Positions 2,972 to 58,359 of a DNA stretch of 64,000 nucleotides are shown piece by piece. The notes beneath the pieces are model-generated. The model was not told the DNA's origin. It did not search any database and saw nothing but the letters and a program-made list of their open reading frames with translations. The DNA is taken from positions 4,352,001-4,416,000 of the forward strand of contig NZ_CP033365.1 in assembly GCF_013170825.1 (NCBI RefSeq), given 5' to 3'. The position numbers were made by a program, and so were the translations under genes. Source of the DNA: Mesorhizobium sp. NZP2298 (GTDB taxonomy: Bacteria > Pseudomonadota > Alphaproteobacteria > Rhizobiales > Rhizobiaceae). Numbering within the stretch: position 1 is the stretch's first letter; the number at the start of each line of letters is the position of its first letter.

Positions 2972-4098
2972 TGCGCCTTGAACTCGTCAAACGCCCGCAG
3001 CGCTCGGCGCTGTTTTCAATGCTGTCACCCTTCATCGCCTTCGCGCTCACCATTATCGCCGGCGCCATCATGTTCGCTCTGCTCGGCGTCAATCCGCTGA
3101 CCGCTTTCCGGATCTACTTCATCGAGCCGATCAGCCAGGTCTGGCAATTGCATGAACTGGCGATCAAGGCGGCGCCGCTGATCCTGATCGCGGTCGGCCT
3201 GTCGGTCTGCTACAAAGCCAACATCTGGAACATCGGCGCCGAAGGGCAGTTCATTTTCGGCGCCATCTTCGGCTCCGCCATTCCAGTCCTGTTTCCTCAG
3301 TTCGAAGGCCCGTTGGTGCTGCCGCTGATGCTTCTGCTCGGCATGGTCGGCGGTGCCGCCTACGCGGCGATCCCGGCCTTGCTCAAGACCCGGTTCAACA
3401 CCAACGAGATCCTGACCAGCCTGATGTTGGTCTATGTCGCCCAACTCTTCCTCGACTGGCTGGTGCGCGGCCCATGGCGCGATCCGCAGGGCCATGGTTT
3501 CCCACAGACGATCCAGTTCGGCGATTCGGCCGTCCTGCCGGAACTGATGCCGGACGCCGGGCGCGCCAACTGGGGTTTTGTGTTCGCGCTGGTTGCCGCG
3601 GTGCTGATCTGGATCCTGATGAGCCGCATGCTCAAGGGCTTCGAGGTCCGTGTGCTGGGCTCCAGCCCGAGGGCAGGGCGCTTCGCCGGCTTCGGTCTCA
3701 GCCGAATGGTGTTCTTCGCCTTCCTGCTGTCCGGCGCGCTGGCCGGCCTTGCCGGCATTTCGGAGGTCTCCGGCGCCATCGGGCAATTGCAGCCGGTGAT
3801 TTCTCCCGGCTACGGCTTCACGGCCATCATCGTGGCGTTCCTCGGCCGCCTCAACCCGCTCGGCATCGTCGCCGCAGGCCTGGTTCTGGCGCTGACCTAT
3901 CTCGGCGGCGAAGCGGTGCAAAGCGCTCTCGGCATTTCCGACAAGGTGGCGAGAGTGTTCCAGGGCATGCTGCTGTTCTTCGTGCTCGGCTGCGACACGC
4001 TCATCCACTATCGCATCCGCCTGATCGGCCTTGCGTTGACCAAGCCCCAGGGCTCGGCACAGCTCGAAGCCGCGCCGAAGTTGAAGGAAGCCCGCTGA
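2968..4098 (+). CDS. ABC transporter permease (BMP/nucleoside type), subunit 1
   Basis: Encodes 376 aa with about ten hydrophobic segments and the family motif NIWNIGAEGQFIFGAIFG near residue 90, typical of BPD_transp_2 permeases such as YufP. It starts with tandem ATG ATG overlapping the stop of the ATPase gene, and its own stop overlaps the next permease start (translational coupling). It forms one half of the inner-membrane channel for a nucleoside-like or simple-sugar substrate; the substrate cannot be read from sequence. Confidence 0.9.
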   Translation: MMRLELVKRPQRSALFSMLSPFIAFALTIIAGAIMFALLGVNPLTAFRIYFIEPISQVWQLHELAIKAAPLILIAVGLSVCYKANIWNIGAEGQFIFGAIFGSAIPVLFPQFEGPLVLPLMLLLGMVGGAAYAAIPALLKTRFNTNEILTSLMLVYVAQLFLDWLVRGPWRDPQGHGFPQTIQFGDSAVLPELMPDAGRANWGFVFALVAAVLIWILMSRMLKGFEVRVLGSSPRAGRFAGFGLSRMVFFAFLLSGALAGLAGISEVSGAIGQLQPVISPGYGFTAIIVAFLGRLNPLGIVAAGLVLALTYLGGEAVQSALGISDKVARVFQGMLLFFVLGCDTLIHYRIRLIGLALTKPQGSAQLEAAPKLKEAR

Positions 4099-6213: not shown

Positions 6214-7527
6214 TCAGACAGCCGAACCGTAAAGGTCATAAGCGTCGGCACGCTCGATCTTCACCGTGACGATGTCACCGGCACGCATCGGGCGGCGTGA
6301 CTGGATGTGGACCGAGCCATCGATCTCGGGCGCGTCGTATTTGGTGCGGCCTTTTGCCGAGGTGCCGTGCGCCTCGTCGATCAGCACCGGCAGGCGCTTG
6401 CCGACCTTCTTGGCCAACTGCGTTGCCGAAATCTTCTGCTGGCGCTGCATGAAGCGGTGCCAGCGTGCTTCCTTGACCTCCTGCGGAACCTGTTCGAGGC
6501 CAAGGTCGTTGGAACGGGCGCCCTTGACGGGCTCGTATTTGAAGCAGCCGGCACGGTCGATCTTGGCCTCGTCCAGCCAGTCGAGCAGCATCTCGAAATC
6601 CTCGTCCGTCTCGCCGGGAAAGCCGACGATGAAGGTCGAGCGGATAGCCAGATCGGGGCACACGTCGCGCCAACCGCGGATGCGTTCGAGCGTCTTTTCG
6701 CCATGCGCCGGACGCCGCATGTTCTTCAGCACCTGCGGCGAGGCATGCTGGAACGGAATGTCGAGATAGGGAAGGATCTTGCCGTCGGCCATCAGCGGGA
6801 TGACGTCGGCGACATGCGGGTAGGGGTAGACATAGTGCATGCGCACCCAGATCCCGAGCTTGCCCAGTTCTTCCGACAGATCGAGGAATTTCGCGCGCAC
6901 TTCGCGATCGCCGAACATCGACGTCTGGTACTTGATGTCGATGCCGTAGGCACTGGTGTCCTGCGAGATGACGAGGAGTTCCTTGACGCCGGCCTTGGCC
7001 AGTTTTTCGGCTTCGCGCAGCACATCGGCGGCCGGGCGCGAAACGAGATCGCCACGAAGGGCGGGAATGATGCAGAAGGTGCAGCGGTTGTTGCAGCCTT
7101 CCGAGATCTTCAGATAGGCATAGTGGCGCGGCGTTAGCTTGACCCCTTGCGGCGGCAGGAGGTCGATATAGGGATCGTGCGAAGGCGGGGCTGCCTCATG
7201 CACGGCGGCCATCACGCTCTCGTAAGCCTGCGGTCCAGTGATCGCCAGCACGTTGGGGTGCTTCTCGCGGATCACGTCCGGCTCGGCACCAAGGCAGCCG
7301 GTGACGATCACCCTGCCGTTTTCTGAAAGCGCGGAACCGATGGCATTGAGCGACTCGTCACGGGCGGAATCGAGGAAACCACAAGTGTTGACCACAACGA
7401 GATCGGCGCCATCATGCTTGCGGGCGATCTCATAGCCTTCGGCGCGCAGGCGCGTGATGATACGCTCGGAATCCACGAGCGCCTTCGGGCATCCAAGGCT
7501 GACAAAACTGACGCGAGGGGCGGACAT
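6214..7527 (-). CDS. rimO: Ribosomal protein S12 methylthiotransferase RimO
   Basis: 437 aa. The N-terminal MTTase domain has cysteines in SLGCPKA, VNTCGF and VTGCLG for the first Fe-S cluster. The radical-SAM domain has [11 protein letters not shown] (CxxxCxxC), and a C-terminal TRAM domain ends [12 protein letters not shown]. It adds a methylthio group to a conserved aspartate of ribosomal protein S12, using SAM. It is convergent with the importer operon and appears to be transcribed alone. Confidence 0.95.
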
Positions 7528-16484: not shown

Positions 16485-17536
16485 CCTTCGAACGCATCGC
16501 GCCGGAACAGCATGATACGCTGGACGGCGTGCCCGAGCCGGCCGAGACGCCTCGTCTGGTCGGGCACGGGCAGGCAGCCGAGATGCTTGCCGCCGCCTAC
16601 CGATCCGGAAAGCTGCCACATGCTCTGATCTTCGCGGGGCCGGTCGGCATCGGCAAGGCGACACTGGCCTTTCATCTCGCACATCACCTGCTGAAGCACC
16701 CGGACTTCGCGCAGGCGCCGGAGAGCCTTGCCGTTCCCGATCCGGCCTCGTCGCTGTTTCGCCAGATCGCGACCGGGGCGCATCCCGGCGTGTTGCACCT
16801 GACCCGGCCGATGAACGACAAGACCAAGAGCTTCAAGACGGTCGTCACCGTCGACGAGATCCGCCGGGTCAGCCGCTTCCTGTCGATGACCTCGCATGAC
16901 GGCAGCTATCGGGTGGTCATCGTCGATCCAGCCGACGACATGAATGCCAATGCCGCCAATGCCTTGCTCAAAAATCTTGAGGAGCCGCCTGCACGAACGC
17001 TGTTCGTTCTCATCGTCCATGCGCCAGGCAGCCTGCTGCCGACGATCCGCTCGCGCTGTCAAATGGTGCGCCTGACACCGCTCGGCGCCGACGAGCTGCT
17101 GGCGGTGCTGGAAACCGCCGAGCCGCCGCCACCGAACGATCCGGCCGCACGGGCGGCATTGGTCGAACGGGCAGGGGGCAGTGTGCGCAACGCGATCCTG
17201 CTGACGCAATATGGCGGGCTCGAAATCGCCCAGACACTCGATGCACTGGTGGCGGCGGGAAAGACCGATATCGGCGGAGCCTATCGGCTCGCCGAAGCCG
17301 TCGCCGGCCGAGACCAGGCGATCCAGTTCGATATCTTCAACCGCCGCGCGCTCGACCTGTTGTCGGATGCCGCAAGCCAGGCAGCGCTGTCAGGCGACCT
17401 CGCATGGGCGAAAACGCTGTCGGACACTTGGCATGAGGCGCTGGACGCGATATCTGAGACCGACACCTACAATCTCGACAAGAAGCAGCACGCCTTGACC
17501 ATGATCGACCGCCTGAATTCTGCGATGCGAATGTGA
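16481..17536 (+). CDS. holB: DNA polymerase III subunit delta'
   Basis: 351 aa from ATG 16481, overlapping tmk by four bases. Clamp-loader AAA+ features: [16 protein letters not shown] (P-loop), [19 protein letters not shown] (Walker B and sensor region) and [15 protein letters not shown] appears as [10 protein letters not shown]. It loads the sliding clamp with gamma/tau and delta. The open frame upstream of ATG 16481 runs antiphase through tmk and is not coding. Confidence 0.93.
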
Positions 17537-17675: not shown

Positions 17676-19229
17676 ATGTCACGCGACACATTCTACATCA
17701 CGACCGCGATTTCCTATCCGAACGGCAAGCCGCATATCGGCCATGCCTACGAACTGATCGCCACCGACGCGCTCGCACGCTTCCAGCGGCTCGACGGCAA
17801 GCAGGTCTTCTTCCTCACCGGGACCGACGAGCACGGCATCAAGATGCTGCAGACGGCGAAGCGCGAAGGCATTTCGGCGCGCGAACTGGCCGATCGCAAC
17901 TCGGCCGATTTCAAGCGCATGGCGATCGCGCTCAACGCGTCCAACGACGATTTCATCCGCACCACGGAAGAACGGCATTACGCCTCCTCGCAGGCGATCT
18001 GGAAGGCGATGGACGCCAATGGCGATATCTACAAGGGCGGCTATGCCGGCTGGTACTCGGTGCGCGACGAAGCCTACTACGGCGAAGAGGAGACGGAGGT
18101 CCGCCCCGACAATGTCCGCTATGGGCCGCAGGGAACGCCGGTCGAATGGGTCGAGGAAGAAAGTTACTTCTTCCGTCTTTCGGCCTACCAGGACAAGCTC
18201 ATTGCCCTTTATGAAAGCCAGCCCGAGTTCATCGGTCCGGCGGAGCGACGCAACGAGGTGATGAGCTTCGTCAAGTCGGGACTGAGGGACCTGTCGATCT
18301 CGCGCACCACCTTCGACTGGGGCGTGCCGGTTCCGGGCGACGAGAAGCACGTCATGTATGTCTGGGTCGATGCCCTGACAAACTACATCACCGGCGTCGG
18401 CTATCCCGATGAAAAGGCTGACAATTGGCGCTTTTGGCCGGCCGACGCGCACATCATCGGCAAGGACATTGTGCGCTTCCATGCGGTTTACTGGCCGGCC
18501 TTCCTGATGTCGGCCGGCATCCCGGTGCCGAAGCGCGTCTTCGGCCACGGCTTCCTGTTCAACCGCGGCGAGAAGATGTCGAAATCGGTCGGCAACGTCA
18601 TCGACCCGTTCACCATGATCGAGCATTACGGCCTCGACCAAGTGCGCTATTTCTTCCTGCGCGAAGTGCCGTTTGGCCAGGACGGCAGCTACAGCCATGA
18701 AGCGATCGTCAACCGCACCAACGCCGACCTCGCCAACGGCCTGGGCAATCTGGCGCAGCGCTCGCTGTCGATGATTGCCAAGAACTGTGGCGGCGTGGTG
18801 CCGAAGCGCGGTGACCTGACCGATGCCGACAGCGTGATCCTGGATCAGGCGGCGGCCGCTCTAGCCACCGCCCGCAAGGCAATGGCTGAGCAAGGCATCC
18901 ATCTGGCGCTGGCGGCGATCTTCGCGGTGGTGGCGGAAGCTGATCGCTATTTCGCCGGGCAGGAGCCATGGGCGCTGAAGAAGGCCAACCCGGAGCGTAT
19001 GGAAACGGTACTGTGGACGACAGCCGAAGTGGTACGGCGCGTGGCGGTGATGTGCCAGCCCTTCATTCCGGGATCGGCCACGAAGCTGCTCGACCTGCTG
19101 GCCGTGCCGGCCGACAAGCGCGACTTCGTGCATGTCCACGCTGACCACGCGCTTGTATCGGGTACTGCCTTGCCGGTGCCGGAAGGGGTATTTCCGCGTT
19201 ACATCGAACAGCCGGGCGCGAACGCCTGA
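17676..19229 (+). CDS. metG: Methionine--tRNA ligase
   Basis: 517 aa. The class I signature HIGH is at residues 20-23 (KPHIGHAYE), and KMSKS is in [10 protein letters not shown]. The zinc-knuckle cysteines of the longer MetG type are absent, matching the short alphaproteobacterial form, and there is no C-terminal dimerisation (EMAP) domain. It charges tRNA-Met. Its stop overlaps tatD. Confidence 0.96.
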
Positions 19230-20023
19230 TGCTCGTCGACAGCCACTGCCACCTGGACTTTCCAGATTTCGCCGAGGAGCGGGCGGCCATTGTCGCTCGC
19301 GCCAAAGCGGCTGGTATCGGCCGCATGGTGACGATATCAACCCGCGTAAAGCGACTTCACCAAATCATTGAAATCGCTGAAACTTTTGATGAAGTTTACT
19401 GCTCCGTCGGCACCCATCCGCACAATGCCGCCGAAGAGCTCGAGGTCACCGCTGCGGACCTTGTTCGTCTGTCCGATCATCCTAAGGTGGTGGCGATCGG
19501 CGAGGCTGGGCTGGATTACTTCTACGACAAGGCGCCGCGCGATGCGCAGGCGCAAGGCTTTCGCAATCACATCGCGGCGGCTCGCGTGACCGGGCTGCCG
19601 CTGGTCATCCATTCGCGCGATGCCGATGACGACATGGCTGCCATTCTCGAAGACGAAACAGGGAAGGGCGCCTTCCCCTTCATCCTGCACTGTTTCTCCT
19701 CCGGACGCCGGCTGGCCGAGGTGGGCGTCTCGCTCGGCGGCTACGTGTCGTTCTCGGGCATCCTGACCTTCAAGAACTCAGCCGAATTGCGCACCATCGC
19801 CGCCGACGTGCCGCATGACCGGCTGCTCGTTGAAACAGACGCGCCATACCTGGCGCCGATCCCATTCCGCGGCAAGCGTAATGAGCCGGCCTATGTCGCG
19901 CACACCGCCAAGGTGCTGGCGGAGACGATTGGTGTCAGCGAAGCTGAAATCGCCGATCTGACGACGAACAATTTCTTCCGACTGTTCGGGAAGATGCCGC
20001 GACCTGCCGAGTTGAGCGCCTGA
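19229..20023 (+). CDS. TatD family metal-dependent hydrolase
   Basis: 264 aa with the TIM-barrel metal motifs VDSHCHLDF, VGTHPHNA, GEAGLDYFYD, VIHSRDADDD and LVETDAPYL. Members are Mg-dependent DNases (YcfH/TatD), often next to metG. The start overlaps the metG stop by one base, and the next gene follows after 3 bp, so metG-tatD-metallohydrolase form an operon. Confidence 0.92.
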   Translation: MLVDSHCHLDFPDFAEERAAIVARAKAAGIGRMVTISTRVKRLHQIIEIAETFDEVYCSVGTHPHNAAEELEVTAADLVRLSDHPKVVAIGEAGLDYFYDKAPRDAQAQGFRNHIAAARVTGLPLVIHSRDADDDMAAILEDETGKGAFPFILHCFSSGRRLAEVGVSLGGYVSFSGILTFKNSAELRTIAADVPHDRLLVETDAPYLAPIPFRGKRNEPAYVAHTAKVLAETIGVSEAEIADLTTNNFFRLFGKMPRPAELSA

Positions 20024-20026
20024 CCG

Positions 20027-20845
20027 ATGACTGACCGGCTGCGTCTAACCGTTCTCGGCTGCGGCTCGTCGCCAGGTGCGCCGCGCATCACCGGCGACTG
20101 GGGCAATTGCGACCCGGACAACCCGAAGAACCGGCGCATGCGTACGGCCGTCCTGGTTGAACGGATCGCGGCGAATGGCAACCGCACGACCGTCGTCATC
20201 GACACTGGCCCCGATTTCCGCCAGCAGATGCTGATGGCCTCTGTCAGGCGCATTGACGCGGTCGTCTACACACATCCACACGCCGATCACATCCACGGCA
20301 TCGATGACCTGCGCGGCTTCGTCCTCGATCAGCGCCAGCGGATCGATATTCACGCCGACGAGCCGACAATGCTGCGGCTGCGCCAGGCGTTCGGCTACTG
20401 CTTCGAGACACCACCCGGCAGTTCCTATCCGCCGATCGTCAGTGCCCATATCATCGACCACGCGAAGCCGGTGGTGATCGAAGGAGAGGGGGGTGCCCTC
20501 ACCCTTGAACCATTGCCGCAGGTGCATGGCGACATCATCTCGCTCGGGTTTCGCATTGGAGCGCTGGCCTATTGCCCTGACATCAGCGACTTTCCCGACA
20601 CCACCGCCGAGCGGCTGTGCGGCCTGGAGATTTTGGTCATCGACGCGCTGCAGTACAAAACCCATCCCAGCCATTTGTCGCTCGGCCAGGCGCTCGGCTG
20701 GATCGAAAAGCTGGCACCGAAACAGGCCGTGCTAACCCATATGCACGTGCCGCTCGACTATGCCACCGTAATGGCCGAGACGCCTGACAAGGTGGTGCCG
20801 GCCTATGATGGCATGGTGATCGAAATGCCTTTTGAATCAGAGTGA
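20027..20845 (+). CDS. MBL fold metallo-hydrolase (PhnP-like)
   Basis: 272 aa. The metallo-beta-lactamase motif THPHADHIHGIDDL gives HxHxDH, and IDTGPDFRQQML precedes it. PQVHGDIISLGFRIG and LTHMHVPLDY supply the remaining metal ligands. It resembles PhnP-like phosphodiesterases usually found after tatD in Rhizobiales. Last gene of the metG operon. The intergenic region that follows holds the dif-like site. Confidence 0.9.
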   Translation: MTDRLRLTVLGCGSSPGAPRITGDWGNCDPDNPKNRRMRTAVLVERIAANGNRTTVVIDTGPDFRQQMLMASVRRIDAVVYTHPHADHIHGIDDLRGFVLDQRQRIDIHADEPTMLRLRQAFGYCFETPPGSSYPPIVSAHIIDHAKPVVIEGEGGALTLEPLPQVHGDIISLGFRIGALAYCPDISDFPDTTAERLCGLEILVIDALQYKTHPSHLSLGQALGWIEKLAPKQAVLTHMHVPLDYATVMAETPDKVVPAYDGMVIEMPFESE

Positions 20846-21016
20846 TAGATCGAATTTCTCGCGAGCTGTGAGCCGTGAAATCGTTCAAGCTGGGATTACC
20901 GGCGGCAAACCGACCTGGCGTGAGTTGCTGCTTAGGATGACGACGCCAAGGACTGTGATCATCGGCGGGCGCGATGCGGAAAGCGCTGTCCTGATTACCG
21001 CACCGCCTGCTCCCAT

Positions 21017-21044
21017 CAGTTCCATAATCTATCTTATGCGACTT
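21017..21044 (+). other. dif/XerCD-like recombination site
   Basis: 28 bp in an 11-6-11 layout. The left arm is CAGTTCCATAA, the centre TCTATC, and the right arm TTATGCGACTT. The core CATAA-N6-TTATG and the CGCATAA half (read on the minus strand) match the bacterial dif consensus as I know it. The two arms agree at 8 of 11 positions as inverted repeats. It lies in the 263-bp gap after the metG operon. Chromosomal dif or a dif copy carried by an element are both possible. Confidence 0.55.
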
Positions 21045-21108
21045 TTGTGTGGGCACGCTTCGTCCCTGGCAATCCCGGATAGGGTAAGTTTCAGCCGCAT
21101 GGAGTCTG

Positions 21109-24100
21109 TTACCGCGGAGGCTTCCTTAGTCGCCCTCGAGCCTGTCGTACACCGACGACGAAGCCTTTTTGCGCGCACAGGCGAACAGCGCCCGCAAGCG
21201 CCGCATCCGCTTCTTCCGGGAGGCCGGCGATGTGGAGAACCTCTCCAAGACCGTCGAGAACGAACGACTGGAGGAACAGAAAGTCCGTCGGCTCGGCGAT
21301 CGCGACAGCCTCCCGGGACATACGGAGAGCTCCCTCCACATCGCCCACACGGACCGAGATCTTTGACCTAACGCATCGCAGCAGGCCTTGCGAGTACGTG
21401 TCGTCACTGCCGGCGATCCCCTCGCCCAACCGAACGAACGCTTCGGCCTCCTCGTACCGGCCTTGGACATAGATGGCTTGGGCGAGTATGCCGGCAATCG
21501 TAGGCAACCATGCGAACTCGCCCGTGCGTTGAAGGGTCCTTACACCCCAGCGAAGCTCCCGCTCGGCGGCTGCCGCGTCGCCCGCCCAGAGCTCGGCCAG
21601 AGCGCTCATCTCGGTGAGAGGTCCCGCGCTCCACACGGTCAGTGCGACTTCCTCGACCGTTGACCGCGCCTGCGCTATCAACTGCCGCGCCTCGCCAAAT
21701 CGGCCGCGCATCGCCTCGAGATTCCCCCAGCTGAAGAGCGCCGCCGACATCGCCTTGCGATCACCTTGTGCCCTGGCGAGCACATCCTTGCACCGGCCGA
21801 TCGCCGCCTTGACCGGCATACGGCCCGCCCACACGACAAGCGGCACCCATGATAGCGACTCGAGCCATTCTCTGTCGTTGCCCGCTGCGAACGCATGCGC
21901 CGCCGCGCTCTCCCACGCCTCTTCAGAGGCGCCGAAATTGCACTTTGTCAGGTGAAACAAGCCAAGCAAGGACCAGCCCTTGGCCAAGCCGTGCTCGTCG
22001 TTTTCCTGCTCGAACATCGATATGGCCTGCCGTGCCTCGCGGTAGGCCTCGTCCGCCCACCCCTCTGGCTCTGACAGGAAGCGCACCCACAGATCGAGAA
22101 TGAGCGCATGCGCTTGCAGTCTGCGATCGGCGGAGGCGGTCGCTGCCTCACGCATCTGGGCGATCGCGCCACGCGTGCGCTCGAGGTCGCCGGTTTCCAG
22201 CAGTGCAAATGCGAGCTCCGGCAAGAGCGCCAGTCGCCCAGGATCGTCGCGAGCTCCGAGCGAGATGGCGCGCGACAGCATGTTGACCGCGGCGGGCATG
22301 TCACCCCGCGCGAAGGCGCGCTGCCCGGCAGAAGCCAGCGGCACGCTCGCACGTCGTGCCAGCGACTCGACGCGCTCGTTCGATAGACCGAGCTCCGCGA
22401 GAGACCTGTAGGCCCGCTCGAGGTGGTAGCCGACGATCTCTTCGTACTCTCGGGCCCGCTCGCGCATCCTTGCCTCCAGCCATGATGCGAAGCGCTCATG
22501 CATGTTGGCTCGTACGCCCTTCGGAATGCCATTGTAGGCCGCGTCCCCGACGAGGCTGTGAGTGAAGCGAAAAGCATCCTCCTCCTCCAGGTCCGAGCGA
22601 TCCGGGCGGATCAGCTGCTTTCTGGCCAGGGACCGGAGCTGGCCGCCAACGCGGGGCCGCTGCTCTTCCGGCGACATCTCCTCGACGGCCCCCCACCAGA
22701 AGATGCGACCGATCACTGATGCTCGCTCGATCACAGAGCGCTCCTCGCCGCCGAGCCGGTCCAAACGCGCGTTGATAAGGGCGTTGATCGTGGGCGGAAT
22801 CGTCAGCCTCGACAGATGGTCAGCCGCCGTCCACGTCCCGTCGACGGCGATGAGCAAACCGTCGTCGATCAGCATTCGCAGCGTCTCCTCCACGAAGAGA
22901 GGGTTCCCCTCGGCGGCATCGGCGATCCGCGCGCGGTCCTCGTTCGCGAGTTCCGCGCCTCCGAGCAAGTTCCGGATCAAGCCGTCCGTATGAGCGTCGC
23001 TCAGCGAGCGCAGGGTGATGAGGGACGCGTTCGCCTTCGACGTCATCCAGCCGGCGCGGACCTCGAGCAGCTCAGGGCGAGCGAGGCAGAGGAAGAACGC
23101 CGGCACGCCGTCCAACGAATCGGCGAGATATTCGAGGAGATCGAGGAATGTCGGCTCCGCCCAGTGAATGTCGTCGAACACGACGACCAATGGCCGATGC
23201 GTTGCCAGCTTGCCGAACAGCTTGCGCACGGCCCAGAACGTCTCTTGAACGCCAGGCGTCGCACGGGTCAGCCCCATGAGTGCGGACAGGCGTTCGACGA
23301 CCAGCGCGGCATCGGGGCCTTCCAATAGCTTGCCAATCTTTGCGCGAGCATCGTCGGGCGAGTGACTATCTGTGATGCCCGCCGCGGCCTTGAGCACCTC
23401 GATGATGGGCCAAAAGGTAATCCCCTCGCCGTATGGCAGGCATCGCCCCGCCACGACTGTCGTTGTCCTTTCGAGTCGGGGAAGAAATTCACGCGTGAGC
23501 CGGGACTTGCCGATTCCCGCCGGGCCCATCACCGTTACGATCTCGCATACTCGAGACTTGACCGTCCTTTCGAACATCTCTCCGATTTCGGCGATTTCTT
23601 TGTCGCGACCGATCAGAGGGGATTCAAGACCATGGGCAGCGAGGGCCGCGGGGGCGACATCCATGAGGTTCCACGCGGCTAAGAGCTCTGACTTCCCCTT
23701 CACGCGAAGCGGCTCGATCGGTGACGTCATCGCGACATCGCGGACCAGCCGATATGTCGCGTCTCCGATCAGGATCTGCCCTGGCTCGGCAGCTTGTTCG
23801 AGCCGGGCAGCAATGTTGACCGCGTCTCCGACCGCGAAAGTTTCGCCCTGGCTCGGATCCCCGGCGATCACCTCACCCGTGGTCATACCTATCCGGATCA
23901 CGATCCTGGTGCCCCAACGCGACTCGAATTCATCATTCAGCCGATGCAGCGCATGAAGCATCGCAACCGCGGCTCGAACCGCACGCACCGCGTCGTCCTC
24001 ATGGAGCAGCGGGATGCCGAACACCGCCATGATCGCATCCCCGATGAACTTCTCGGTTGTCCCCCCGTGGCCACGAATTACCGCGGCCATCTCCCGAAAG

Positions 24101-24330
24101 TACTGGGTCATGAGATTGCGAAGCGACTCGGGATCGAGCTCATCTCCCAACGCCGTCGAGCCGACAATATCAGCAAAGAGGATCGTGACCACCTTGCGCG
24201 TATCGGCGGCACCGGAAGCTCGTTGGGTCAGCGGCGATGCACAGGACGCACAGAACTGCAATTCGGCTGCATTGGCAGATCCGCATGTCGAACAGATCGA
24301 GCTCCCAAGAGCATATCTCATTGTGCTCAT
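21109..24330 (-). CDS. Class III adenylate/guanylate cyclase with AAA ATPase and TPR-like region
   Basis: About 1073 aa from ATG 24330; in-frame ATGs at 24384 and 24321 are alternatives and none has a good ribosome site. A zinc ribbon (CSTCGSA and CASCASP) opens the protein. The cyclase domain has both metal aspartates (LFADIVGST and FIGDAIMAVFG), the substrate Lys (TEKF) and VNIAARLEQ, so it should be active. Next come an STAND/AAA module (MGPAGIGKSRL, VVFDDIHWAEP) and a long helical repeat tail. It probably makes cAMP in response to an unknown signal. It is divergent from a Crp-containing operon. Confidence 0.88.
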   Translation of the reverse strand: MSTMRYALGSSICSTCGSANAAELQFCASCASPLTQRASGAADTRKVVTILFADIVGSTALGDELDPESLRNLMTQYFREMAAVIRGHGGTTEKFIGDAIMAVFGIPLLHEDDAVRAVRAAVAMLHALHRLNDEFESRWGTRIVIRIGMTTGEVIAGDPSQGETFAVGDAVNIAARLEQAAEPGQILIGDATYRLVRDVAMTSPIEPLRVKGKSELLAAWNLMDVAPAALAAHGLESPLIGRDKEIAEIGEMFERTVKSRVCEIVTVMGPAGIGKSRLTREFLPRLERTTTVVAGRCLPYGEGITFWPIIEVLKAAAGITDSHSPDDARAKIGKLLEGPDAALVVERLSALMGLTRATPGVQETFWAVRKLFGKLATHRPLVVVFDDIHWAEPTFLDLLEYLADSLDGVPAFFLCLARPELLEVRAGWMTSKANASLITLRSLSDAHTDGLIRNLLGGAELANEDRARIADAAEGNPLFVEETLRMLIDDGLLIAVDGTWTAADHLSRLTIPPTINALINARLDRLGGEERSVIERASVIGRIFWWGAVEEMSPEEQRPRVGGQLRSLARKQLIRPDRSDLEEEDAFRFTHSLVGDAAYNGIPKGVRANMHERFASWLEARMRERAREYEEIVGYHLERAYRSLAELGLSNERVESLARRASVPLASAGQRAFARGDMPAAVNMLSRAISLGARDDPGRLALLPELAFALLETGDLERTRGAIAQMREAATASADRRLQAHALILDLWVRFLSEPEGWADEAYREARQAISMFEQENDEHGLAKGWSLLGLFHLTKCNFGASEEAWESAAAHAFAAGNDREWLESLSWVPLVVWAGRMPVKAAIGRCKDVLARAQGDRKAMSAALFSWGNLEAMRGRFGEARQLIAQARSTVEEVALTVWSAGPLTEMSALAELWAGDAAAAERELRWGVRTLQRTGEFAWLPTIAGILAQAIYVQGRYEEAEAFVRLGEGIAGSDDTYSQGLLRCVRSKISVRVGDVEGALRMSREAVAIAEPTDFLFLQSFVLDGLGEVLHIAGLPEEADAALAGAVRLCAQKGFVVGVRQARGRLRKPPR

Positions 24331-24371
24331 GGACTGTACGGCCAGGCCTTGCGTAGGGCAAGTCCGCCCTC

Positions 24372-24400
24372 TTGACAGGTCCATCTTAGTCTAGGATAGT
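24372..24400 (+). promoter_or_regulatory. Candidate sigma-70-type promoter of the small ORF-diiron enzyme-Crp operon
   Basis: TTGACA (24372-24377), 17-bp spacer, GATAGT (24395-24400). The -10 element overlaps the 10-bp repeat array. Transcription would start about 25 bp before the 61-aa gene. Confidence 0.45.
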
Positions 24401-24667: not shown

Positions 24668-25357
24668 ATGAACGGGATCGAGGTTGGGGCCGCTAGTACG
24701 CCGAGCGTTCGTCTCCGGCGGAAGATTAATCTTGTGGTGCAACCATACGCAAAGTCATGTCGCACCCTTGTGACGCATCCTAGGCTTGCTGACTTTTGGC
24801 CGCAGTTCCTGCTCACTCAGCACCAGATCATTCGTGCAACGGTGCCGTTGACGGAAGTAGCAGCGGAGCGAGCCGAGAAAATGGCGGCCGCTGACCCTAT
24901 CGCGTCCGGTCTGGCCCGATATCTGGAGGAGCATGTCAAGGAGGAGTTGGGGCATGATGACTTGCTGCTCGATGACCTCGAACTGCTAGGTGTGAAGCGG
25001 GCGACGGCGCTGAGCCGCATACCATCCCCCTCGGTCGCGAGCCTTGTGGGAGCGCAGTACTACTGGATCCATCACCATCACCCTGTCGCGTTCCTTGGTT
25101 TCGTCGCGCTGATGGAGGGACACCCGCCGACACCGACGCTGATCCAGACGCTGATTTCCGCAACGGGGTTTCCGCATGCGGCTTTCCAGACGCTCATCGA
25201 CCACGGTGAGCTCGATCCCGGACACCGCGACCGGCTCTACCGCACGATCGACGCCCTGCCCCTGACAGCCGAGCACGAAACCGTCATGGGCATCTCCGCC
25301 ATGCATGGCGCCACGCTTCTTCCATCCACGATCGAGGAGATCCTCGAACAGGGGTAG
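24668..25357 (+). CDS. Heme-oxygenase-like diiron (iron-containing redox) enzyme
   Basis: 229 aa. The helical HDO/TENA-PqqC-like fold is suggested by the first metal helix YLEEHVKEELGHD (ExxH and ExxxH spacing), the middle YYWIHHHHPVAFLGF, and the second half HGELDPGHRDRLY plus MGISAMHG. This matches the 'iron-containing redox enzyme' family, whose characterised relatives oxidise small molecules or amino-acid side chains with dioxygen. The start at 24668 has GGGA nearby. It sits between a 61-aa protein and a Crp regulator, so the small protein is a candidate substrate or partner. The reaction is unknown. Confidence 0.75.
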   Translation: MNGIEVGAASTPSVRLRRKINLVVQPYAKSCRTLVTHPRLADFWPQFLLTQHQIIRATVPLTEVAAERAEKMAAADPIASGLARYLEEHVKEELGHDDLLLDDLELLGVKRATALSRIPSPSVASLVGAQYYWIHHHHPVAFLGFVALMEGHPPTPTLIQTLISATGFPHAAFQTLIDHGELDPGHRDRLYRTIDALPLTAEHETVMGISAMHGATLLPSTIEEILEQG

Positions 25358-28002: not shown

Positions 28003-28887
28003 TCACCGCCGCTCCTGCTCCAGGCTGATCCGGTAACCCAGAGAACGCTTCGCTCCCGGCTCGATCAGCATCACGCCAGGTTTCTCGCTGAACTCGCCGT
28101 CGAAATCGGCTGGGCTTGCAATGCCGCGCCAAGGTTCGATGCACAGGAACGGCGCGCCGCCCGGTTTGGACCAGATGCCCAGTTCCTCTGCTCCCTGCCA
28201 TGACATCTCGATCGCCGGACCGTGGTCGGCGGCGTAGCGCACGCTGGTGCTGGCGGGCCGGTCCAGAATGACGGCGTCGTCATAGAACAGGCGTTCGGAC
28301 AGCGAAAGCGTCTTGCCTTCGATGGGTGTCGGCCGCGGTGCCGGGAGCAAAAGGCCGTCCTTCAGCCGGCGGATCGGCGCTGGCTCGGCCTCCGCAAAGG
28401 TCAGCCGATAGGCCTCCTTGGGCAATTCCGGCAGCAATGGCCAGTTGAATGCCGGATGCGCACCGATCGAAGCCGGCAATGGCTCGTCACCGGTGTTGGT
28501 GATCTCGAAGGTCACGCCAAGCTGCTGGCGGTCGAGCGTGTAGGTCACGGCGAGGCGGAAGGCGAAAGGATAGTGCGCGCGCGTGTCGGCGTCGTCGGTG
28601 AGGATCAGCGTGCAGGACCGAGGCCCCCTCTCCTCCCAGGTGAATGGCTTGTCGCGGGCGAAGCCGTGCTGTGTCATCGGATAGGTGTGGCCGCGATGGC
28701 GCAGTTGGTCGCCCTTCAGCCGGCCGACGATCGGGAACAGCACCGGCGAATGGCGCCGCCACTCTGGTCCGGCCTGCCACAGGAACTCAAACCCTTGCGC
28801 ATCCTGCAGCGAGACCAGTTCGGCACCCTGCCCGACTATGACAGCCGAGATGCCGTCGCCACGAAGCGTTTGGCTGTCCTGTGCCAT
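28003..28887 (-). CDS. Aldose 1-epimerase family protein (LacX-like)
   Basis: 294 aa. SIGAHPAFNWPL carries the catalytic His, and FLCIEPWRGIASP the catalytic Glu, of the galactose mutarotase superfamily; SPVLFPIVGRLKGD and QHGFARDKPF are typical of the LacX-like subgroup. It interconverts sugar anomers, the substrate being unknown. It is followed by the proC remnant and preceded by a strong hairpin. Confidence 0.88.
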   Translation of the reverse strand: MAQDSQTLRGDGISAVIVGQGAELVSLQDAQGFEFLWQAGPEWRRHSPVLFPIVGRLKGDQLRHRGHTYPMTQHGFARDKPFTWEERGPRSCTLILTDDADTRAHYPFAFRLAVTYTLDRQQLGVTFEITNTGDEPLPASIGAHPAFNWPLLPELPKEAYRLTFAEAEPAPIRRLKDGLLLPAPRPTPIEGKTLSLSERLFYDDAVILDRPASTSVRYAADHGPAIEMSWQGAEELGIWSKPGGAPFLCIEPWRGIASPADFDGEFSEKPGVMLIEPGAKRSLGYRISLEQERR

Positions 28888-36872: not shown

Positions 36873-38234
36873 TCAGACTCCCAGCGACTTCAGCTTGCGG
36901 TGCAGGGCCGAGCGTTCCATGCCGATGAACTCGGCGGTCTTCGAGATGTTGCCGCCAAAGCGGTTGATCTGGGCGATCAGATAGTCCTTCTCGAACTGCT
37001 CACGCGCCTCGCGCAGCGGCAGCGCCATGATGTGCTGGTCGGACTGATTCGGCGTGCGCGGCATGACATCGCCGATCTCTGACGGCAGCAGGTCCGCGGT
37101 GATGGGCGCATCGACGTCGTCGCCCCGCGCCAGGATCATCAGCCGCTCGACATTGTTGCGCAGCTGGCGGACGTTCCCTGGCCAGTTGTGCGCCTGCAGC
37201 ACGGCCAGCGCGTCATCGCCGATGCGACGCGGCTTGATACCGGCCTGGCGGGCGATCTGCTTCATGAAATTGTCGACGAGATAGGGAATATCCTCGCGCC
37301 GCTCGGCCAGTCCCGGCACCATCACGGGAACCACAGCCAAGCGATGATAAAGATCCTCGCGGAAACGGCCGTCGGCAATCATGGCTTCCAGATTCTGCGA
37401 GGTCGAGGAGATGATGCGGACATCGACCTTGACCCGCTTTGTGCCCCCTACCCGCTCGAACTGCTGCTCGACCAGCACGCGCAGAATCTTGTTCTGCGTC
37501 TCGCGCGGCATGTCTGCCACTTCATCGATGTAGAGGATGCCGCGATGGGCTTCTTCCAGCGCGCCGACCTTGCGCTCGACACCGTTCGATTCGGTGCCGA
37601 ACAGTTCGATCTCCATGCGCTCGGGCGTGATGTTGGCGGCGCTCAGCGTCACGAACGGCGCGCCCTTGCGGGCCGACAGCGTGTGGATGGCTCGCGCCGC
37701 CAGTTCCTTGCCCGAGCCGGACGGGCCGATGATCATGACACGGCTGTTGGTCGGCGCGACGCGCTCGATGGTCTGACGCAACTGGCTCATCGCCGACGAC
37801 ATGCCGATCAAGTCGAAGGTCTCGCCGCTGCGCTGCTTGAGGTCGGACACCTCGCGCCTCAGTTTCGAGGTTTCGAGCGCGCGCTCGGCAATGAGGATCA
37901 GCCTATCGGCCTTGAACGGCTTCTCGATGAAATCATAGGCGCCACGACGGATGGCGGAGACCGCCGTTTCGATGTTTCCGTGGCCGGAGATCATCACCAC
38001 CGGCAAGGTTGGATGCATGGTCTTGATCTCGTCCAGCAGCGCCAACCCGTCCAGACGCGAACCCTGCAGCCAGATGTCGAGGAAAATCAATCTCGGCGCC
38101 CGATCGGCTATGGCAGCTAGCGCGCTGTCGGCGTCGAACGCCGTGCGGGTTTCGTGACCTTCGTCGCTCAGGATACCTGCGACGAGCTCGCGGATGTCTT
38201 CCTCGTCATCGACGATGAGAATATCAGACGCCAT
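36873..38234 (-). CDS. ntrX: Nitrogen assimilation response regulator NtrX
   Basis: 453 aa from ATG 38234 (MASDILIVDDEEDIRELV); this overlaps the ntrY stop by 11 bp. Receiver domain with FLDIWLQGSRLDGL, AAA+ domain with GPSGSGKELAARAIH and ILYIDEVADMP, and a Fis-type HTH at the end (GNISKTAEFIGMERSALHRK). The sigma-54-contacting GAFTGA loop is replaced by ERKVGALEEA. It is the partner of NtrY in nitrogen/redox control. Confidence 0.94.
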   Translation of the reverse strand: MASDILIVDDEEDIRELVAGILSDEGHETRTAFDADSALAAIADRAPRLIFLDIWLQGSRLDGLALLDEIKTMHPTLPVVMISGHGNIETAVSAIRRGAYDFIEKPFKADRLILIAERALETSKLRREVSDLKQRSGETFDLIGMSSAMSQLRQTIERVAPTNSRVMIIGPSGSGKELAARAIHTLSARKGAPFVTLSAANITPERMEIELFGTESNGVERKVGALEEAHRGILYIDEVADMPRETQNKILRVLVEQQFERVGGTKRVKVDVRIISSTSQNLEAMIADGRFREDLYHRLAVVPVMVPGLAERREDIPYLVDNFMKQIARQAGIKPRRIGDDALAVLQAHNWPGNVRQLRNNVERLMILARGDDVDAPITADLLPSEIGDVMPRTPNQSDQHIMALPLREAREQFEKDYLIAQINRFGGNISKTAEFIGMERSALHRKLKSLGV

Positions 38235-43235: not shown

Positions 43236-44260
43236 GCGGCGCTCCTCAGGATCAAGGGTTGCGGATCGCGCGAGAACACATCTCGCAGCAAGGCAATGAC
43301 GCGGTCCGGCTCGAACGTGGTCAGGATGGCTTTCCGGTCGTCGTCGGCAACGCCAACGGCATGGCGATCGAGATACCAGCCCAGATGCTTGCGCGCCTGC
43401 CGCAAGCCGCTCTCGACACCATAAAGCGCCAGCATGTCCTCGTAGTGGGCGACAATATAGTCGGCCAATGCCGCGGGATTTTGCGGTACGTAGACGGCCG
43501 TTTCGCCTGCCGCCGCGGCTGCGATGCCACCGGCGATCCAGGGCGCGCCATAATGCGCGCGGCCGACCATCACCGCGTCGGCGCCGGATTGCTCTAGAAT
43601 GGTGGCCGCTTCGGCCGGGGAGCAGACATCGCCATTGGCAACGACAGGAATCGACACAGCTTCCTTGACGCGAGCGATGGCACGCCAGTCGGCCTTGCCC
43701 TGATAGAACTGGCAGCGCGTGCGACCGTGCACCGTCACCATGCTGACGCCCGCCTGCTCGGCACGGCGCGCAAGGACCGGTGCGTTGAGCGCACCTTCGT
43801 CCCACCCAAGCCGCATCTTGACCGTCACCGGCACCTTCACCGCGCCAACCACGGCCTCGATCAAAGACAGTGCATGGTCGAGGTCGAGCATCAATGCCGA
43901 ACCGGCATAGCCGCCGGTAACCTTCTTGGCCGGGCAGCCCATGTTGATGTCGATGATGTCGGCGCCCTCGCCAGCGGCGATCCGCGCGCCTTCGGCCATA
44001 TGGGCCGCCTCGCGGCCGGCAAGCTGCACCATATGGACGGGCAGCCCGGAATGACGTATGCGCAGGTCGAAGCCGGCCCTGCCCTTGGCCAGTTCGCCGC
44101 TTGCCACCATTTCGGACACGACAAGGCCAGCGCCATGCGCATGGGCGCGTTGCCGGAAAGGCTCGTCTGTAATACCCGACATCGGCGCGAGGAACACGCG
44201 ATTGCGGATTTCCACGCCGCCAACGTCGAGAGGCGCGGCCAATTTGGTCAGGTTAACCAT
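43232..44260 (-). CDS. dusB: tRNA-dihydrouridine synthase DusB (nifR3)
   Basis: 342 aa from ATG 44260 ([14 protein letters not shown]); the longer open frame upstream reads through the promoter. FMN-TIM-barrel motifs: [35 protein letters not shown] with the catalytic Cys, and [14 protein letters not shown]. It reduces uridines in tRNA D-loops. First gene of the dusB-ntrB-ntrC operon typical of alphaproteobacteria. Confidence 0.95.
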
Positions 44261-44503: not shown

Positions 44504-45727
44504 ATGACTGACGGAAGTGAAAACTCGAGCGCGACAGGTGGGGTTGCGGTGGTGATCGTCGCCGCCGGCCGGGGCGCTCGTGCCGGGCAGGCCAACGGAC
44601 CCAAGCAGTACCAGAACATCGGCGACCGCGCGGTCATTGCGCATACGCTGGAGATGTTTCTTGCCCATCCGCGAACCGGCCAGATTGTCGTCGCCATCCA
44701 CGCCGACGATCACGAACTGTTCCGGCAGGCGGCGGGTGCCCAGGCCCAGCGTGTCATCGCCGTCATCGGCGGGCCGACCAGGCAGGAGTCCGTCCGGCTC
44801 GGGCTTCTGGCGCTGAAGGGCCACGCGCCGGGCCAGGTTCTGATTCACGATGCCGTCCGCCCCTTCGTCGACGCGGACTTGATCGACCGCACCATCGCCG
44901 CCATCAGCGAACACGAGGGGGCGTTGCCTGCCCTGCCCGTCGCCGACACGCTGAAGCGCGAGTCGGCATCCGGCGTGGTCGCGGAAACCGTTTCCCGCAG
45001 CGGGCTGCACGCGGCGCAAACACCGCAAGGTTTTCCCTACGGGCCGATCCTCGCCGCACATGACAAGGCCCATCAGTTGGGCAAGCTCGATTTCACCGAT
45101 GACGCGGCCATCGCCGAATGGGCGCATATTCCGGTCAAGCTCGTTCCGGGCTCGCCGGACAATGTCAAACTCACCTGGGCACGGGACATCGCCATGGCGC
45201 ACCAGCGACTTTCCAGCGAACGAATACACTTCCCAGACATCCGCACCGGGAACGGCTATGATGTCCATGCCTTCGAGGCTGGCGATCACGTGACCCTGTG
45301 CGGCGTCGCCATTCCGCACGACAAGAAATTGTCCGGCCATTCCGATGCCGATGTCGGCCTGCACGCCTTGACCGATGCGCTGCTGGCGACCTGCGGCGCC
45401 GGCGACATCGGCACGCATTTTCCCCCGTCCGATCGACAGTGGAAGGGTGCCGCGTCGCGGATATTCGTCGAACATGCGGCGAGGGTGGTGCGCGAGCGCG
45501 GCGGACGCATCGCCAATGCCGACATCACGCTTATCTGTGAAGCGCCGCGTGTCGGCCCGCACCGCGAGGCGATGACATCGGCCCTTTCGCAGATGCTGGG
45601 GATTTCCGCCGACCGCATCTCGATCAAGGCCACAACCAACGAAAAACTCGGCTTCGTCGGCCGCGAGGAAGGCATCGCGGCGATCGCTACCGCCAGCGTG
45701 GTTTTCCCCGGCGAGGTGCCGGAATGA
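44504..45727 (+). CDS. ispDF: Bifunctional IspD/IspF (MEP pathway)
   Basis: 407 aa. The N-terminal IspD part has [13 protein letters not shown] and [14 protein letters not shown]; the C-terminal IspF part from about residue 248 has [20 protein letters not shown] (metal Asp/His), [10 protein letters not shown] and [15 protein letters not shown]. It performs the cytidylyltransferase and cyclodiphosphate synthase steps of isoprenoid synthesis. The fusion is usual in alphaproteobacteria. It overlaps the next gene by four bases. Confidence 0.96.
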
Positions 45728-54943: not shown

Positions 54944-55043
54944 CGCCCGTTCCTCGCAGCCGCGAACTCAGGCGGCTCACGATCTTTTTCACCCGATTGT
55001 GCTTAACGGACGGTTACGGAGCCCTGCCCGGCGACAACGAAAT

Positions 55044-57498: not shown

Positions 57499-58359
57499 TC
57501 AGCGGCCCTTGGCTATCCGGTCGAAGGCCATCAGTCTCTCGAGAAGCGCTGGCATGTCCTTCAGCGGCACCATGTTCGGTCCGTCGGAAGAGGTCGAATT
57601 GTCGGGATCCTGGTGGGTCTCGATAAAGACGCCGGCAACGCCGACGGCGACGGCCGCGCGAGCCAAGGTTTCGACAAAGCGACGCTCGCCGCCTGACGAA
57701 CCGCCCTGCCCGCCCGGCTGCTGGACCGAATGCGTGGCGTCGAAAATCACCGGAGCCCCGATTTCGGCCATGATGGGCAGGGCCCGCATGTCGGATACCA
57801 GCGTGTTGTAGCCGAAGGACGCGCCGCGCTCGGTGGTCAGGACATTGGCATTGCCGGAACCTGTGATCTTGGCGACCACGTTCTTCATGTCCCAGGGCGC
57901 AAGGAATTGCCCCTTCTTGACGTTGATGACCTTGCCGGTCCTTGCCGCGGCGACCAGCATGTCGGTCTGACGCGACAGGAAGGCAGGTATCTGGAGCACA
58001 TCGACATGCGGAGCGACGATCGCACACTGCTCCTCGGTGTGGACATCGGTCAGCACGGGAAGCGAAAACGCCTTGCGCAGTTCGTCAAAGACGGGAAGCG
58101 CGGCATCCATGCCGGCGCCGCGTGTTGCCGACAGCGAGGTGCGGTTGGCCTTGTCGTAACTCGTCTTGTAGACGAGGCCGATGCCGAGCCTGCCGGTCAG
58201 TTCCTTCAGCGCGCCAGCCATGTCGAAGGCATGCTGGCGCGATTCGAACTGACACGGGCCGGCGATCAGCGCCAAGGCCGCATTGTTGTCGAAGACGACA
58301 TTGCCGACCGTTACCGACGAATTGGGCGTCGTCGAATTGGACGCTTGGGGCTTGCTCAT
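57499..58359 (-). CDS. kdsA: 3-deoxy-8-phosphooctulonate synthase
   Basis: 286 aa. [52 protein letters not shown] and [14 protein letters not shown] mark the PEP/arabinose-5-phosphate condensing TIM barrel. Makes Kdo-8-P for lipopolysaccharide. Its start overlaps the VOC gene by four bases; kdsA near eno is a common rhizobial order. Confidence 0.96.

Follow-up and report, generated by a model that had tools for sequence, protein, structure and literature searches.

Does the 28-bp sequence at positions 21017-21044 of the window, by which we mean the whole analysed stretch of 64,000 nucleotides from Mesorhizobium sp. NZP2298 (bases 4352001-4416000 of a 7,336,816-bp single-contig genome), represent the dif site of the chromosome, and what does it reveal about the terminus? 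A first-pass annotation of the window had proposed a 28-bp site with XerC/XerD layout at this position, flanked by octamers and genes that change their polarity there and by accessory genes, and had named as checks the cumulative GC skew of the chromosome, a count of the octamer by strand and a search for a better dif match elsewhere. The site is present as described, with the letters CAGTTCCATAATCTATCTTATGCGACTT at 21017-21044 (genome coordinates 4373017-4373044), and we have very little doubt that it serves as the chromosomal dif in this bacterium of the Mesorhizobium group. On the minus strand the site reads AAGTCGCATAAGATAGATTATGGAACTG, and its identification as dif builds on the sole CATAA-N6-TTATG of the genome, on conservation among relatives and on a published site of M. 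loti.

Sequence, uniqueness and conservation of the site

On the minus strand the XerC arm, centre and XerD arm follow one another as AAGTCGCATAA-GATAGA-TTATGGAACTG, so that the architecture is that of dif-type sites, with two 11-bp inverted arms, a 6-bp centre and CATAA and TTATG at the inner edges. The XerD arm TTATGGAACTG (21017-21027) was assigned from its sequence, and the central hexamer GATAGA (21028-21033) from its sequence and from the centre class GATRKR, which 145 of the 146 genus genomes share. The XerC arm AAGTCGCATAA (21034-21044) was named as such partly from its likeness to the XerC arm of E. coli. All three parts are located on the minus strand within a 263-bp gap between convergent genes (20846-21108; no strand), which was delimited from gene calls and open reading frames. 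The assignment of the XerC arm also follows the orientation used in the table of dif sites of Carnoy and Roten (2009; PMC2731167), which lists the dif of M. loti MAFF303099. That site is likewise intergenic, has the same arms and centre and is identical to the present one in 27 of 28 bases, the last base of the XerD arm being T in M. loti MAFF303099 and G here. Among the other entries of the table, the dif of Brucella melitensis chromosome I (CGCATAA-GATAGA-TTATGGAACTG) differs from the site described here in the outer bases of the XerC arm, and that of the circular chromosome of Agrobacterium tumefaciens (CGCATAA-GATATA-TTATGGAACTT) in the centre as well as in the outer XerC-arm bases (PMC2731167). 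Predictions of dif have been reported for 641 organisms (Kono et al., 2011). The call is thus the correct recognition of a known feature, the sequence of the site having been published for the genus in 2009.

At 0 mismatches the window has a single occurrence of the core CATAA-N6-TTATG, and a pattern search of the whole 7,336,816-bp genome returned this single place. The reversed-pattern control matches two places in the genome, which is more than the core itself, so that the bare palindromic core is weak evidence. With a 27-mer model, in which the full arms are specified, the centre is free and up to three mismatches are tolerated, two places were found: dif fits with 0 mismatches, and 6704477-6704503 has 2 mismatches and a broken TTATG in the XerD arm. 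The search for a better or second dif match yielded no other place with CATAA-N6-TTATG, and a single full match per chromosome is what the genome contains.

Among relatives, the bare core is present in all 41 that were searched (the genome itself counted in), and the 27-mer was detected within three mismatches in 146 of 146 genus genomes. The pattern GCATAAGATRKRTTATGGAA, which combines the core with the centre class, occurs in 145 of these 146 and exactly once in 143, and its reversed-pattern control gave 0 matches in all 146. Three genomes depart from having a single GATRKR-class dif: G118 and G157 have two each, and G132 has none; in G157 the two sites are located on different contigs and have the centres GATATA and GATAGA. 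In the fetched loci conservation stops at the edges of the approximately 28 bp, and between species the 28 bp are kept while the flanks vary, above all on the XerC side. Exact matches to the 27-mer model extend to named contigs of Phyllobacterium, Brucella, Nitratireductor, Aminobacter and others, amounting to at least 118 stretches. A chance palindrome near the terminus, which the shortness of the bare core and the two matches of its reversed control might suggest, is refuted by this conservation of 28 bp across the genus despite variable flanks, and in other Hyphomicrobiales, and is left with a vanishingly small probability. The strength of the dif prediction comes from conservation among relatives and not from the bare core.

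The two sides of the site differ in their gene content. On the XerD side the plus strand encodes a methionyl-tRNA synthetase (17676-19229; Pfam PF09334), a TatD-type DNase (19229-20023; PF01026) and, as the first gene next to dif, a protein of the metallo-beta-lactamase (MBL) fold (20027-20845; PF12706). The first gene on the XerC side, on the minus strand, is accessory and encodes a 1091-residue protein with adenylate/guanylate cyclase and AAA parts (21109-24384; PF00211 and PF13191). Across 171 fetched dif-like loci, a set in which duplicates were retained, many members have only 1.5 kb of flank and some are plasmid-type sites, the fixed order MBL protein-TatD-MetG was seen on the XerD side in 118, and the cyclase/AAA protein adjoins dif in one (L139), a count that includes the many loci holding only 1.5 kb of flank. 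The idea of accessory genes beside dif consequently holds for the XerC side, which is variable, but not for the XerD side, where relatives have a fixed gene order.

It could also be argued that the site was brought in by a mobile element or an integrated plasmid and is not the chromosome's own dif, since dif-like sites with the same arms are found on repC contigs of relatives and insertion sequences adjoin many dif sites. Yet the central hexamer belongs to the GATRKR class, which is found once in 143 of the 146 genomes, the XerD side retains its gene order in the majority of the dif-like loci, and the switch of octamer polarity at dif described below contradicts such an origin, which we regard as extremely unlikely. 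A comparison of the region at 20.0-24.5 kb with plasmid records gave 17 records with a match, every match being partial; the five with the highest coverage, 17% of the query, align to the MBL gene and not to dif.

Octamer polarity, GC skew and the terminus

The octamer GGGNAGGG is the same as the KOPS of Azorhizobium caulinodans (PMC2443382) and of Agrobacterium (PMC12153318), both of which belong to other genera and are described as having it biased towards the terminus dif, and its polarity towards dif has been described for large extra replicons in general (PMC13342612). A scan of the window located 12 copies. To the left of dif all four are on the plus strand and directed towards it (3671-3678, 6818-6825, 17169-17176 and 19661-19668, the last being the nearest on this side). 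To the right seven of eight are on the minus strand, again directed towards dif (25254-25261, which is the nearest, 28826-28833, 37446-37453, 44077-44084, 44931-44938, 55022-55029 and 57704-57711), and the exception at 57775-57782 is on the plus strand and directed away. The ten supporting copies and the one exception given in the first-pass annotation were all recovered at their places and on their strands; the minus-strand copy at 28826 had been overlooked and also fits. The number of copies in the window is ordinary (the mean of shuffled sequences is 7.95, and 12 was reached in 9 of 100 shuffles), but their orientation is unusual.

The polarity extends well beyond the window. Within 464 kb around dif, 38 of 38 copies to the left are on the plus strand and 36 of 38 to the right on the minus strand, so that 74 of 76 agree with a single strand switch, and the best single switch point is the 5.6-kb interval 4371661-4377254, which contains dif and is bounded by the two copies on either side of it. 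Sampling of the genome in 80 pieces of 20 kb, together 1.6 Mb or 22% of its length, yielded 200 copies, of which 178 (89%) are directed towards dif and 22 away from it, with the arms split at the antipode 704623 and not at the true origin. The latter is only coarsely mapped, the best fits spanning 474-1479 kb. The whole genome contains 922 copies, 450 on the plus and 472 on the minus strand. Taken relative to dif, the count by strand turned out strongly biased in the 1.6-Mb sample, with a switch at dif in the 464 kb, which is the behaviour of a KOPS, polar towards dif and switching there.

When the 9,542 octamer families of pattern XXXNXXXX that reach at least 100 copies in the sample are ranked, GGGNAGGG comes first by both bias and ratio, the next best reaching 69%. 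This ranking bears on whether the polarity reflects mere G-richness of the leading strand instead of FtsK guidance, as could be supposed from other G-rich octamers that are biased likewise (AGGNGAGG at 69% and GGCNGGGG at 65%) and from the reversed octamer GGGANGGG, which stands at 80 to 39. At 89%, GGGNAGGG is far above the next of the 9,542 families, and its bias is stronger when N is A, C or T (25/1, 121/9 and 9/1 towards/away in the sample) than when N is G (only 23/11), so that an explanation by G-richness seems very unlikely to us and guidance of FtsK is preferred.

The cumulative GC skew, sampled over the same 80 x 20 kb, has its maximum after the stretch 4310380-4330379, the last one sampled before the window; the turn thus adjoins the window, as had been anticipated, and falls between the stretches around it, with its fine position blurred. 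Within the 464 kb a local skew maximum was observed at 4465001, 92 kb from dif, and inside the window alone the GC skew is too weak and noisy to reveal a switch. The gene hemE, which lies close to the origin in relatives, is found at 955190, giving dif-to-hemE arms of about 3.4 and 3.9 Mb. Gene strands, called with a home-made codon-usage gene finder, follow the same direction: in the window 9 genes are on the plus and 6 on the minus strand to the left of dif, compared with 8 plus and 28 minus to the right, and in the 464 kb the corresponding numbers are 107 plus and 67 minus to the left and 59 plus and 127 minus to the right. The switch in gene polarity that had been claimed at dif is accordingly real as a bias, but only moderate, with six genes on the left (6.2-11.5 kb) on the minus strand. 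The site is the point of FtsK convergence and is not by itself proof of where the forks meet; according to a 2026 report, coverage is not in every case lowest at dif (PMC13342612).

Candidate recombination machinery and proposed dimer resolution

The best profile matches in the genome provide a XerC candidate at 1101294-1102181 and a XerD candidate at 1682483-1683373, two clear best matches in which the HxLRH...Y motif region is visible. Both score below the NCBIfam equivalog cut-offs (309.6 vs 335.15 and 316 vs 329.6, respectively), and in 14 control genomes the same XerC and XerD models exceed the cut-off in only 2 and 4. With the subfamily model NF001399 (cut-off 279) the XerD candidate passes at 369.2, and the XerC candidate, at 235, does not. 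FtsK gamma domains were detected at 1131817 and 1265806, indicating two FtsK-type genes, and one of these domains, when compared with solved structures, aligns with gamma chains of FtsK, 2ve8/2ve9 and 5dcf among them. The same genome has, at 6863253-6865969 (G000:C1, minus strand), three adjacent matches to Xer-like tyrosine recombinases, one with an internal TAG, which may represent a recombinase-trio element.

By analogy with the established work on XerCD, dif and FtsK, we infer that XerCD binding, strand exchange and activation by FtsK would take place at this dif. An odd number of crossovers would join two sister chromosomes into a dimer, whereupon FtsK at the closing septum would load on GGGNAGGG, its putative gamma-domain recognition motif here, move along each arm to the point where the motifs converge and bring both copies of dif together. 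XerD and XerC would then occupy their 11-bp arms and swap strands where these arms border the 6-bp centre, yielding two monomers.

Mobile DNA and the XerC arm in relatives

Of 142 unique loci in relatives, 18 have an end that begins with TGTAG precisely 5 bp beyond the outer edge of the XerC arm; the remaining offsets up to 29 on the XerC side account for 4 loci in total, and the XerD side for 1. The ISNCY transposase model NF033594 was matched above cut-off in all five loci tested (L240, L205, L247, L316 and L323), in L205 at 2.2 kb from the XerC arm, and a transposase of the IS30 family is present near dif in L161 and, barely over the cut-off, in L193. The elements of L161, L193, L240, L247 and further loci end at just this 5-bp distance from the XerC arm of dif. 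The IS1202 family has been characterized as dif hunters at 5 bp (Harmer et al., 2023), and no IS30 elements at dif were found in searches of open-licence PMC literature, including PMC12907356 and PMC12445084.

The second-best dif-like 27-mer of the genome, at 6704477-6704503 (G000:C1, outside the window; 9633-9659 of L105), combines a perfect XerC arm with the broken XerD arm AAGTCGCATAAATGGCAGTGTGGAACT. This pattern, termed class 3, is matched with up to 1 mismatch in 47 of the 146 genus genomes; 28 of the sites have about 50 bp in common, which extend 20 bp inside on the XerC-arm side. The class-3 sites of five genomes (G000, G009, G063, G065 and G016) have a common outer flank and different inner DNA, as is expected of a recombination junction. 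Five adjoining proteins on the XerC-arm side, picked by eye (L313, L317, L324, L333 and L334), all match anti-phage models, namely dGTPase, AbiEii, PDC-S04 (Fic), E1-E2 and IetA. In L316 and L323 insertion sequences likewise end 5 bp outside the XerC arm of class-3 sites; that the same insertion sequences hunt these sites suggests that they too resemble Xer sites.

A DNA comparison of ten genomes revealed a 1.7-kb module of DUF1403 and ScpB-like genes 12-20 kb inside the class-3 sites of five (G003, G016, G063, G107 and G126), the pair of G063 being found in L345. Near this module a tyrosine recombinase is encoded in G003 (L355), which also has RepC, and a DUF3363 protein in G126 (L353). These findings suggest that the surroundings of class-3 sites are conjugative, ICE-like or plasmid-derived. 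A mobilising gene shared by the junctions was also sought, and none was obvious in an all-against-all comparison of proteins from ten genomes with crude ORF calling. The other end of the elements did not emerge from a motif scan of ten genomes and G138, in which a clear second copy was seen in G109 alone.

Contigs of 208-949 kb also bear plasmid-type sites, in which the same arms surround different central hexamers (CATGTA, CATACA, TCTGAA, CATACA), and all six such contigs that were looked up carry RepC (G042:C5, G047:C2, G056:C4, G058:C2, G058:C3 and G067:C3). In the single-contig genomes G003 (G003:C1:152339) and G011 (G011:C1:3967566) a dif-like site is found on the chromosome contig at a distance of 36 and 120 kb, respectively, from RepC, which may point to integrated replicons. 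Seven further loci (L120, L123, L175, L190, L198, L228 and L232) have the same arms around TCTATC, which is the chromosomal centre GATAGA in reverse complement. Most TCTATC-centre sites share flank motifs with one another and with sites whose centres are CGCATA, CATATC or GATATC, and judging from these motifs they probably represent one kind of carrier with changing centres.

A joint reading of these observations, which we put forward as speculative and rather unlikely, is that the XerC arm could act in Mesorhizobium as a landing mark common to mobile DNA of unrelated kinds. ISNCY/IS1202-like and IS30 elements would land 5 bp outside it, giving rise to a fixed side and a terminus-linked hotspot of insertion, and class-3 junctions, present in about a third of the genus genomes, would have taken over the perfect XerC arm within the approximately 50 bp that border defence genes, so that host Xer, or a dedicated integrase mimicking it, may move defence cargo.

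The dif site fixes the terminus of this chromosome, and raw sequence suffices to recognize both dif and GGGNAGGG. What may matter beyond the site itself are the one-sided insertion hotspot, the repABC contigs whose dif-like sites have different centres, and the defence-bearing XerC-arm junctions. With these it could be tested whether Xer recombination, usually deemed housekeeping, also trades defence genes between rhizobia.
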